This document shows positions 30,428-32,700 of a stretch of DNA of 64,000 bases, one piece after another (the stretch's first letter is position 1; each line of letters opens with the position of its first letter). The stretch spans positions 1,613,092 through 1,677,091 of the forward strand of contig NZ_AP019781.1 of the NCBI RefSeq assembly GCF_019669965.1, read 5' to 3'. The notes under the pieces were generated by a model. That model saw only the letters and a list, made by a program, of their open reading frames with translations. It had not been told where the DNA came from and did no database searches. This DNA comes from Methanoculleus chikugoensis. GTDB lineage: Archaea; Halobacteriota; Methanomicrobia; Methanomicrobiales; Methanoculleaceae. The position numbers were made by a program, and so were the translations under genes.

Positions 30428-32020
30428 ATGAAGATCGCACTTCTCCAGCTGAACACGGTCGTCGGCGACCTCGCCGGAAACGCCGACAGGATAGCGGCAG
30501 GCGTCGATGAAGCGGTCCATTACCGGCCGGACCTGATCGTGGCACCGGAGCTCTCCCTGCCGGGCTGCCCACCCCGGGACCTGCTGTTGCAAACGGGGTT
30601 TATCGCGCGCAGTCTCACCGTCCTCGGCGAACTTGCAGCCGACCTCAGGGATGCGCCCCCGGTTCTCGTCGGTTTCGCCGAGCCGAACCTCACCGGCACC
30701 GGCCGGCCGCTCTTCAACGCCGCCGCCCTCCTCCGGGACGGTGCGGTAAGTAAGACGTTCCGGAAGGCCCTTCTCTCCTCCGGCGTATTCGATGAAGACC
30801 GCTACTTCGAGCCGGGGCCCGGGATCCCGCAATCCCTCAACCTCGACGGGGTGACGGTCGGGGTCACCATCGGTGAGGAGATCCGGTGTGCCGGGCCGGT
30901 GCCGGAGGTGATCGTGAACCTCTCCGCATCGCCGTTTGCCGCAGGCCTGCACGCCCTGCGCGAGGAGGCGCTCTCGGAGATCGCAAGGACCCGCCAGGTC
31001 GCAATCGTCTCGGCAAATCTCGTCGGCGGGAACGACGATCTGGTCTTCGACGGTCGGAGCATTGCCGTTTCCGCAGACGGAACCCTCATCGCCCGCGGTG
31101 CGGCCTTTGCCGAGGGCGTCGTAACCGTCGATCTTGCCCGCCCCGTCCCGCAGGCGGTCGCTCCCGACGACCCGACACCTGAGGCGGAGATCTGGCGGGC
31201 GCTGGTCCTCGGCACCCGCGACTACGTCCAGAAATGCGACCTGACATCGGTCCTCATCGGCCTCTCCGGCGGGATCGATTCCTCGCTCGTGGCCGCCGTC
31301 GCCGCCCGGGCGCTCGGGCCGGAGAACGTCCTCGGGGTGCTCCTCCCTTCCCCACACACCTCCGCGGAGAGCATCGAAGACGCCCGGGAACTTGCGGCGA
31401 ACCTCGGTATCGGGGTGCAGTGCATTCCAATTGCCCCTATGATGGAGGCGTTCGACGGCGCCCTCGCGGATGTCTTCGCGGGGCTTGCCCCCGACATCAC
31501 CGAAGAGAACCTCCAGGCCAGGATCCGGGCGACGGCGCTGATGGCCCTCGCGAACAAGTTCGGCTCCATGCTCCTCTCGACCGGGAACAAGTCAGAGGTC
31601 GCGGTCGGCTACTCCACACTTTATGGGGATGCGGCAGGGGGGTTATCCGTGATCGCCGACGTCCCGAAGGGGATGGTCTACCGGATTGCCCGGTGGCTGA
31701 ACGCACAACGCCCCGTCATTCCTGAGAGGGTGCTACAAAAACCTCCCTCCGCGGAACTCCGGCCCGGCCAGACCGACCAGGAGATCCTCCCCCCTTACGA
31801 CCTTCTCGACGCGATCCTCCGCCGTCATATCGACTGTTTCGAGTCGGTCGACGAGATCATCGCCGCCGGGTATCCCGAGGAGACCGTCCGGGAGGTCGCG
31901 AGAATGGTCGATCGGGCAGAATTCAAGCGCAGGCAGGCTCCGCCGGGGATAAAAGTGACCGGCAGGGCGTTTTCCACCGACTGGCATATGCCGATCGCCG
32001 CGAAGCCCTGGTGGCAGTGA
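30428..32020 (+). CDS. nadE: NAD+ synthase with nitrilase-like N-terminal domain
   Basis: A 530-residue two-domain enzyme for the last step of NAD synthesis. The C-terminal synthetase has the ATP-pyrophosphatase loop SGGIDSS (280-286), LSTGNKSE and the family end KPWW. The N-terminal amidase-like domain (about 1-250) keeps the Glu (E41, APELSLPG) and Lys (K113, FRKALL), but the catalytic Cys position reads VTIGEEI with Gly149. Glutamine hydrolysis in that domain is therefore not expected, and ammonia may be used directly. The downstream gene overlaps by one base. Confidence 0.95.
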   Translation: MKIALLQLNTVVGDLAGNADRIAAGVDEAVHYRPDLIVAPELSLPGCPPRDLLLQTGFIARSLTVLGELAADLRDAPPVLVGFAEPNLTGTGRPLFNAAALLRDGAVSKTFRKALLSSGVFDEDRYFEPGPGIPQSLNLDGVTVGVTIGEEIRCAGPVPEVIVNLSASPFAAGLHALREEALSEIARTRQVAIVSANLVGGNDDLVFDGRSIAVSADGTLIARGAAFAEGVVTVDLARPVPQAVAPDDPTPEAEIWRALVLGTRDYVQKCDLTSVLIGLSGGIDSSLVAAVAARALGPENVLGVLLPSPHTSAESIEDARELAANLGIGVQCIPIAPMMEAFDGALADVFAGLAPDITEENLQARIRATALMALANKFGSMLLSTGNKSEVAVGYSTLYGDAAGGLSVIADVPKGMVYRIARWLNAQRPVIPERVLQKPPSAELRPGQTDQEILPPYDLLDAILRRHIDCFESVDEIIAAGYPEETVREVARMVDRAEFKRRQAPPGIKVTGRAFSTDWHMPIAAKPWWQ

Positions 32021-32700
32021 TGGCGGTGACCCTCACCGACGACCTCAACCTCATCTACGACGCCCTCTTCGCAGCGTTCGGCCACCAGCACTGGTGGCCC
32101 GCAAGGACGCCGTTCGAGGCGATGATCGGCGCGATCCTCGCCCAGAACGTCTCCTGGACGAACGCTGCGCGGGCCGTCCGTAACCTCGAAGACGCCGGGA
32201 TGCTCGACCCCCATCTCCTCGCTGCGGCCGATACCGCCGCCATCGCGTGCCTGATCGTCCCTTCCCGGTACTACAACCAGAAGGCAGAGCGGATCAGGGA
32301 GTTTTCCGCGGTCTACGTCGCCGAGTTCGGGGCCGACCCGGCGGCGATGGCGGCCGTAGAAACCGGCGAACTCCGCGAGCGGCTGCTTGCCCTCCGGGGG
32401 TTCGGGAAGGAGACGGCGGACACCATCCTGCTGTATGCCTGCGAAAAGCCGGTCTTCGTCGTCGATGCGTATACCCGGCGGATATTTTCACGCTACGGCC
32501 TCCTCCCTGAAGGGGCGTCCTACGACCAGACACAACAGTTCTTTGCCGAGAACCTTGAGTCGGACGCGGAACTCTTCAACGACTACCATGCCCAGATCGT
32601 GCGCCTGGGAAGCACCATCTGCAAAAAATCGCCGCTCTGCGACCGCTGTCCCATCCGGGAGGTCCGCGGGCCGCTCCGGTGTGCCGTGGGGCGGACGTAA
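32020..32700 (+). CDS. Endonuclease III-related DNA glycosylase with Fe-S motif
   Basis: A 226-residue HhH-GPD protein for base excision repair. The hairpin motif LRGFGKETAD (125-134) is followed by the catalytic Asp in VVDAYTRR (D149). At the usual lyase-lysine position the sequence is Glu131 with Lys130 one residue earlier, so it may be a monofunctional glycosylase, like MagIII-type 3-methyladenine enzymes. Cysteines C201, C207, C210 and C221 form a [4Fe-4S] loop. The ATG at 32020 shares its A with the nadE stop. Confidence 0.88.
   Translation: MAVTLTDDLNLIYDALFAAFGHQHWWPARTPFEAMIGAILAQNVSWTNAARAVRNLEDAGMLDPHLLAAADTAAIACLIVPSRYYNQKAERIREFSAVYVAEFGADPAAMAAVETGELRERLLALRGFGKETADTILLYACEKPVFVVDAYTRRIFSRYGLLPEGASYDQTQQFFAENLESDAELFNDYHAQIVRLGSTICKKSPLCDRCPIREVRGPLRCAVGRT

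Follow-up and report, generated by a model that had tools for sequence, protein, structure and literature searches.

Our analysis of a window of 64,000 nucleotides from Methanoculleus chikugoensis revealed a two-domain NAD synthetase (NADS), encoded by nadE, in which the catalytic cysteine of the N-terminal glutaminase domain is replaced by glycine. The replacement is not a peculiarity of one genome but extends throughout the genus. Taken as a whole, the best explanation, and one that we consider very probable, is that the enzyme runs on free ammonia and that the inactive domain has been kept. The features of the gene are the following (positions within the window):

30428..32020, + strand: nadE, two-domain (fused) NAD synthetase, 530 aa plus stop (NF010588/PRK13981, PF02540, PF00795)
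30431..31144, + strand: nitrilase-like (CN_hydrolase) glutaminase domain, residues 2-239, predicted inactive (PF00795, 56.5 bits)
30548..30550, + strand: Glu41, the Glu of the former triad, kept (E in 36/37 Methanoculleus rows of the alignment)
30566..30568, + strand: Cys47, replacing the constriction Tyr (residue-47 column of the alignment)
30764..30766, + strand: Lys113, the triad Lys, kept (K in 37/37 Methanoculleus rows)
30770..30796, + strand: degraded YRE-type loop, residues 115-123, with Glu123 kept (alignment)
30872..30874, + strand: Gly149 (codon GGT) at the position of the nucleophilic Cys (window sequence and alignment to relatives)
30875..30907, + strand: residues 150-160, remnant behind the nucleophile, 18 residues fewer than in Cys-bearing archaeal enzymes (alignment)
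31193..31939, + strand: NAD synthetase domain, residues 256-504 (PF02540, 252 bits)
31265-31282, + strand: PP-loop SGGIDS of the synthetase domain
31940..32017, + strand: C-terminal extension, read as the interface loop typical of two-component NadE (alignment to 4f4h)

The window protein exceeds the cut-offs of both the fused NAD+ synthase model NF010588 (629.9 bits, cut-off 479) and the NAD synthase model TIGR00552 (216.8 bits, cut-off 63.65). It has a nitrilase domain fused N-terminally to the synthetase, a C-terminal loop and a PP-loop of the SGGxDS type, as is characteristic of the class; what it lacks is a complete C-E-K triad, because Gly149 stands in place of the nucleophilic Cys next to the preserved Glu41 and Lys113. 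The C-terminal extension, aligned with 4f4h up to its residue 558 of 565, is kept, with Gly516 and Gly518 changed in the genus and low pLDDT in the window model; by our own mapping, it would represent the extended-loop signature of the 2012 classification. In the window, nadE is preceded by two genes on the other strand, which appear to be universal-stress/acetyltransferase-like and PAS-kinase-like, and is followed by an endonuclease III-like and a RecQ-like ORF. All four neighbours were matched in six of six long-flank relatives (L052-L057), the RecQ-like match in L052 comprising 61 residues only, and Methanoculleus largely preserves the gene order kinase/nadE/EndoIII/RecQ. The listed GTG start of the endonuclease III-like ORF (32011-32700, + strand) overlaps the nadE stop.

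Enzymes of this class have a Cys-Glu-Lys catalytic triad, represented in M. tuberculosis NadE by Cys176, Glu52 and Lys121, with Glu132 as a second Glu (available text of PMC6946656). In the alignment to Cys-bearing relatives, Gly149 falls on the nucleophile without any gap just before or at the site, the window protein reading VGVTIGEEI where the relatives have ICEDIW. This bears out the original prediction that the catalytic Cys has given way to Gly, and that Glu41 and Lys113 remain, both being read in the window protein and nearly invariant in the genus. The range assigned to the site, 30875-30895, points to a real feature but lies one codon late, starting at Glu150 and covering EEIRCAG. The sole exception at Glu41 is row L050, whose gene is split between two frames at that place; Glu123 (the second Glu) and Glu150 are each kept in 35 of the 37 Methanoculleus rows. 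The possibility raised at the outset that Cys154 is the actual nucleophile was checked and rejected, as this residue is not conserved: 85 of 88 Cys-bearing rows have Asn here, and among the 35 Methanoculleus rows only 23 have Cys.

Changes around the former active site go well beyond the nucleophile. Residue 47 is Tyr in all 88 Cys-bearing rows and Cys in 33 of the 35 Methanoculleus rows. The YRE-type loop, LLPTYDVFDE in the Cys-bearing set, has become variable in Methanoculleus; in the window protein it is altered and one residue shorter, with Phe121 and Glu123 still there and Cys in place of Tyr47. Elsewhere in the genus Phe121 is often replaced by Leu (22/35 rows) and Trp153 is often lost (21/35). 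Behind the nucleophile, the segment 149-168 comprises 20 aa in the window protein, whereas 84 of the 88 Cys-bearing rows have 38 aa there. With the triad residues as reference points, we take Tyr47 and Phe121 to correspond to the constriction residues Tyr58 and Phe130 of M. tuberculosis NadE, and Trp153 to the human gate residue Trp179; the pairing is our own, the roles of the three reference residues being those given in the accessible part of PMC6946656. Not all of these changes would be inactivating. By our reading, the changes at residues 119 and 118 are not so by themselves: where Methanoculleus has Gly119, 5kha and 3n05 have Gly too, and 4f4h has Thr at the place of Tyr118. Loop sequence varies among triad-bearing structures too. 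Likewise, the insert DFWKRRRYHxDP is also absent from the triad-keeping 4f4h and 5kha, and only the loss of the stretch beyond it goes further.

How widely is the Cys lost? A search of the family covered 40 genomes, 35 of them from the genus of the window, which was assigned to Methanoculleus via named relatives. A nadE match was present in 33 of the 35 and absent from G142 and G145 (83 and 85% complete); in two others (G124, G153) the match stops short of the site, leaving 31 readable genomes. Cys is absent from all 31, with Gly in 30 and Ser in one (G155), and sequencing error or a local mutation is excluded, since every readable genome of the genus agrees. Gly is also found in at least six loci titled Methanoculleus (5) or Methanomicrobiales archaeon (1), 75-84% identical to the window protein, which may be of the same species. 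In an alignment of 128 rows, made without L001, L002, L024 and L028 (duplicates or members of another family), 91 rows have C at the site, 36 have G and one has S; the G and S rows come exclusively from the Methanoculleus group, and all 91 long-NadE rows outside it keep Cys. The codons in 36 rows (the GGT of the window excluded) are GGC in 23, GGT in six, GGG in four, GGA in two and AGC (Ser) in one.

Outside the genus the Cys persists. It is kept in sister genera of the same family that have a long NadE (G080, G104, G116), and in the order-wide search (199 genomes, 187 matched) 17 of 17 long NadEs outside the genus retain it among the matches listed. Most non-genus genomes of the order gave a synthetase-domain match only, with frames mostly of about 220-310 codons among the matches listed, as would be expected of a short NadE. 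Thus, the proposal to look for a lineage-wide loss holds at the level of the genus, wherever the site is readable, but not for Methanomicrobiales as a whole.

To place the loss we used a tree of the synthetase domain alone, built by a quick method without L048 and L049, in which 26 of 56 inner branches are open. All 26 distinct Methanoculleus rows fall into a single clade (SH-aLRT 99), to which three Cys-bearing sisters attach (SH-aLRT 96). The site requires two changes, which we read as a single C-to-G and a single G-to-S step; on this quick tree, the Cys would have been lost a single time, on the genus stem.

Erosion is concentrated in the glutaminase domain. We regarded as near-invariant the positions with at least 97% constancy across 88 Cys-bearing rows, and tested them in 35 Methanoculleus rows (leaving out L046, L085, L103, L050 and L029). 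Of 48 such positions in the glutaminase domain, Methanoculleus has lost 18, versus eight of 76 in the synthetase domain (Fisher p = 0.0005), so that 68 of 76 synthetase positions are kept. The losses affect Tyr47, Pro49, 115-122, Cys149 to Trp153, the deleted segment after the Cys, and positions 166, 174 and 208. In seven comparison clades, each smaller (3-21 rows versus 35), the glutaminase domain has lost 0-5 of 48-53 such positions and the synthetase domain 1-12 of 77-85; the f2/f4 long NadEs, with 12/85, exceed Methanoculleus in synthetase loss. The segment 149-168 has shrunk to 32 aa in four Methanoculleus rows, 28 in four, 21 in one, 20 in 25 and 17 in one, and the 27 of 35 rows with 17-21 residues have lost the ELVRAGA-equivalent stretch. 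At least 80 of the reference loci were retrieved with six peptide patterns including FDEDRYFE, and the invariance of that stretch is consequently in part selected; LLPTYDV lies outside the pattern. In a check for this bias by whole-protein search, 19 of the 20 long NadEs from an Acidobacteria family that are readable at both sites keep the Lys, a loop of the LPxYxVFDE type and ICED; the exception (L142) is the same gene as L085 (see below), L156 is without the segment, and L160 and L163 are one gene.

The AlphaFold2 model of the window protein has a mean pLDDT of 87.8; its amidase fold matches the Nesterenkonia amidase (Z-score 30.1, 228 residues), and the full-length model matches 3n05 (Z-score 40.8, 495 aligned residues). 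Both folds are thus predicted to be intact. In the model of a Cys-bearing Methanosaeta protein (L064), helices 153-156 and 165-171 separate the strand that precedes Cys146 from the one that follows it. The window model has no helix between the corresponding pair of strands, 142-148 and 161-166.

The substitution patterns show that both domains, the inactive glutaminase domain included, are under purifying selection. In Methanoculleus, the glutaminase domain has median pairwise dN/dS values of 0.345, 0.250 and 0.206 in three distance bands (285, 36 and 4 pairs), and the synthetase domain has 0.221, 0.142 and 0.107; near-identical rows were left out, and the values are descriptive, as pairs are not independent. 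In Cys-bearing archaea (5, 23 and 29 pairs) the two domains are alike, with glutaminase/synthetase values of 0.181/0.177, 0.169/0.200 and 0.154/0.125. The between-domain dN ratio is 1.53-1.76 in Methanoculleus, 1.42-1.53 in the broad Cys-bearing set and 1.11-1.22 in Cys-bearing archaea, and in most identity bands the domain difference in Methanoculleus is no larger than that in the broad set. Because of this similarity, we take relaxation to be local rather than domain-wide. The largest change concerns the YRE-type loop (residues 111-127), where pN/pS is 0.409 versus 0.060 in Cys-bearing archaea; the values are 0.560 versus 0.278 around the Cys motif and 0.790 versus 0.480 for residues 128-143. 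Residues 1-110 show no such relaxation (0.324 versus 0.414). These ratios are rough, since pS is about 0.38 in Methanoculleus and 0.75, near saturation, in Cys-bearing archaea, and since the archaeal pairs are few. The near-invariance of Glu41, Lys113, Glu123 and Glu150 also runs against plain decay. The suggestion of the original prediction that the domain is retained for a structural or regulatory role fits such purifying selection.

If the enzyme has lost its own glutaminase, does the cell still depend on it? At E <= 1e-10, no second NadE was found among the matches listed for the 33 matched genomes of the genus, so the candidate of a hidden second enzyme was rejected at that threshold; the same search does find synthetase-only matches in other genera at 1e-11 to 1e-38. 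In the one-contig genome of the window, the sole other match at E <= 0.01 covers 65 residues of a separate 273-codon open frame. This genome encodes two NadA (quinolinate synthase) proteins, NadC and a NadM-type adenylyltransferase; of the two nadA genes (L135 and L137), one adjoins nadC. It also encodes a nicotinate phosphoribosyltransferase (NF006415, 452 bits, cut-off 243), which first appeared as a second QRPTase-type match. Its product, NaMN, still needs amidation by way of NaAD, and salvage that would make NadE dispensable was on that ground rejected. PF04095, which we take to be the family holding the nicotinamide enzyme able to bypass NadE, was not found in the genome of the window, the control set being matched in 6 of 14 genomes. 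As both the de novo and the nicotinate salvage routes end at NadE and no second NadE was found, we see no candidate for the amidation step other than the fused protein.

We propose that the ancestor was a fused glutamine-dependent NadE with Cys, a form still held by the sister genera, and that its nucleophilic Cys changed to Gly on the genus stem. The glutamine pocket, the YRE-type loop and the tunnel constriction would then have eroded, followed by the segment behind the nucleophile. The synthetase domain would still adenylate NaAD with ATP, and free NH3 instead of glutamine would attack the adenylated intermediate, yielding NAD. The absence of glutamine hydrolysis, ammonia as the donor and the role of the retained domain are all things we infer. 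The inactive domain would be kept for structure or as an ammonia entry: it would hold the fused fold, probably the oligomer too, and may offer an open entry for ammonia, as the path once taken by glutamine could be opened when bulky gate residues disappear along with the nucleophile. The fused M. tuberculosis NadE accepts free ammonia as a substrate (available text of PMC6946656), which means that an enzyme without the Cys may well continue to make NAD. In a more elaborate form of the proposal, the glutaminase domain has been rebuilt as an ammonia port: with the nucleophile, Tyr47, Phe121 (in most of the genus), Trp153 and the covering segment lost, the old route would be opened into the tunnel, Glu41, Lys113, Glu123 and Glu150 would shape the entry or sense a ligand, and NH3 would be funnelled to adenylated NaAD. 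We regard this version as rather unlikely, though conceivable. On the other side, the glutaminase domain of yeast Qns1 is reportedly "essential and obligate", to judge from a title of 2003, suggesting that ammonia alone is not always enough in a cell.

Alternative readings differ mainly in what they make of the retained domain and of the nitrogen source. The inactive domain might be mere baggage on its way out, with a role limited to not disturbing the fold, a reading that is compatible with the use of ammonia and that we regard as possible, if somewhat doubtful. The stepwise deletion of segment 149-168, from 38 aa to 32, 28, 20-21 and 17 aa, is what it would lead one to expect; a glutaminase dN/dS well under 1 and the retained Glu and Lys residues are not. 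Moreover, a clearly shortened gene was seen in none of the genomes: incomplete matches sit in fragmented drafts (G022, G124, G128, G132, G153 and G160), with contig ends seen for most, and in draft G112 nadE is split between frames. The retained charged residues Glu41, Lys113, Glu123 and Glu150 could instead mean that glutamine is still hydrolysed by a relocated nucleophile, with Cys47 (or Cys154) replacing Cys149. Cys47 lies near the old active site and, common as it is in Methanoculleus, occurs in 0 of 88 Cys-bearing rows. However, loss of Cys149 is exceptionless and gain of Cys47 is not, two of 35 rows having Tyr47 yet no Cys149; Cys154 is missing from 12 of 35 rows, and that every row has one or the other or both is expected by chance at these counts. 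With the post-nucleophile segment and the glutamine-touching loop gone or variable as well, we consider this reading very improbable.

Ammonia could also be fed to the synthetase in trans, by another nitrilase-family protein or another glutaminase. Two-subunit NADS do exist elsewhere, e.g. in Thermus (available text of PMC3376133), and the genome of the window has two further CN_hydrolase genes; neither is near nadE, however, and the synthetase already has its own G-domain. The best model for one product is N-carbamoylputrescine amidase, with a fused agmatine-deiminase-like part, and for the other deaminated-glutathione amidase, all scores being below curated cut-offs. A trans-acting G-subunit was therefore rejected within the CN_hydrolase family, whose two other members resemble other amidases, and the reading as a whole seems to us highly unlikely. 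The 646-aa protein encoded at L132:376-2316 (- strand) in the same genome joins an N-carbamoylputrescine-amidase-like and an agmatine-deiminase-like part, i.e. two successive agmatine steps fused. Least probable, in our judgement, is that the window protein works mainly on NaMN as an NMN synthetase, like the Francisella enzyme, feeding NadM rather than making NAD from NaAD. The NadM-type adenylyltransferase encoded in the genome would be compatible with this, as archaeal NadM accepts both NMN and NaMN; yet the two NAD synthase models are both exceeded, and the NadE of M. jannaschii has no appreciable NMN synthetase activity (both activities from the available text of PMC3376133). Free ammonia as the donor, as the original prediction had it, is the reading that we retain.

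Compared with known systems, the window protein is closest to type F NADS (NF010588/PRK13981; 4f4h, 5kha, 3n05), with which it shares domain order, folds, PP-loop, most synthetase residues, the C-terminal extension, Glu41 and Lys113; unlike them, it has no nucleophilic Cys, constriction Tyr or post-nucleophile segment, and its YRE-type loop is degraded. The PDB title of 3n05 says NH3-dependent, yet its sequence retains ICED. The predicted chemistry, ATP plus NaAD plus free ammonia, is that of single-domain ammonia-dependent NadE (M. jannaschii; 2e18), but the window protein carries a PF00795 domain, is fused, and has apparently lost glutamine use secondarily. The C176A variant of M. tuberculosis NadE lacks the same Cys and crystallises with ATP, AMPCPP or NaAD (PDB titles); it is, however, a man-made single change in an otherwise intact pocket. 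By analogy, the nearest parallel is the origin of CPS I (carbamoyl-phosphate synthetase I) of land vertebrates from CPS III, in which the amidotransferase domain was kept without its catalytic Cys and the enzyme switched to free ammonia (available text of PMC7657897), although CPS is not related to NadE and the triad of its GAT domain is Cys-His-Glu.

Similar erosion may not be confined to Methanoculleus. The long NadE of Acidobacteriaceae bacterium Jx357_bin24 (L085:2148-3758; G199, a draft of about 2.6 Mb) has a degraded glutaminase domain, with Ser at the position of Lys113, the YRE-type loop gone, ICED changed to FCAD (Ala after a preserved Cys) and a seven-residue deletion in the same post-nucleophile segment; its synthetase domain looks intact, and it is the only match of its genome at E <= 1e-10. 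Its family had a match at E <= 1e-50 in 20 of the 27 genomes searched, and these changes are shared by none of the 19 other readable long NadEs. This apparently independent case hints at repeated inactivation by different routes, weakly so in that it is one draft genome. In a long NadE from another family of the same order as Methanoculleus (L046, G019), the N-terminal domain is spread over two frames and Thr occupies the position of Lys113, which may reflect a draft error or a pseudogene-like glutaminase domain.

The fused case in archaea is itself not new. De Ingeniis et al. 2012 (PMC3376133, available text) described single-domain NADS as typical of Archaea, listed "Methanocalleus marisnigri" and Methanosaeta thermophila among those with a fused form gained via horizontal transfer, and classed the fused form as glutamine-utilising; that text, as far as it is available, has no mention of a missing Cys. 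From the rest of the genus, M. marisnigri NadE is likely to be without the Cys as well. A literature search of titles and abstract starts, with thin coverage of subscription journals, found no published report of the Cys loss in Methanoculleus NadE. Some Methanoculleus stem from high-ammonia biogas digesters, according to partially available sources; a causal tie between such a habitat and the loss would be speculation.

Overall, a fused glutaminase domain is commonly read as evidence of glutamine use, as in the 2012 survey (available text of PMC3376133), and here a whole genus, which the survey had listed among the fused archaeal examples, breaks the rule. Methanoculleus offers a natural series of stages in which an amidotransferase was switched off without being deleted, and the route of ammonia into a fused synthetase becomes a testable question in its NadE. 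If the ammonia port were true, free NH3 would be funnelled through what was formerly the active site of an enzyme.
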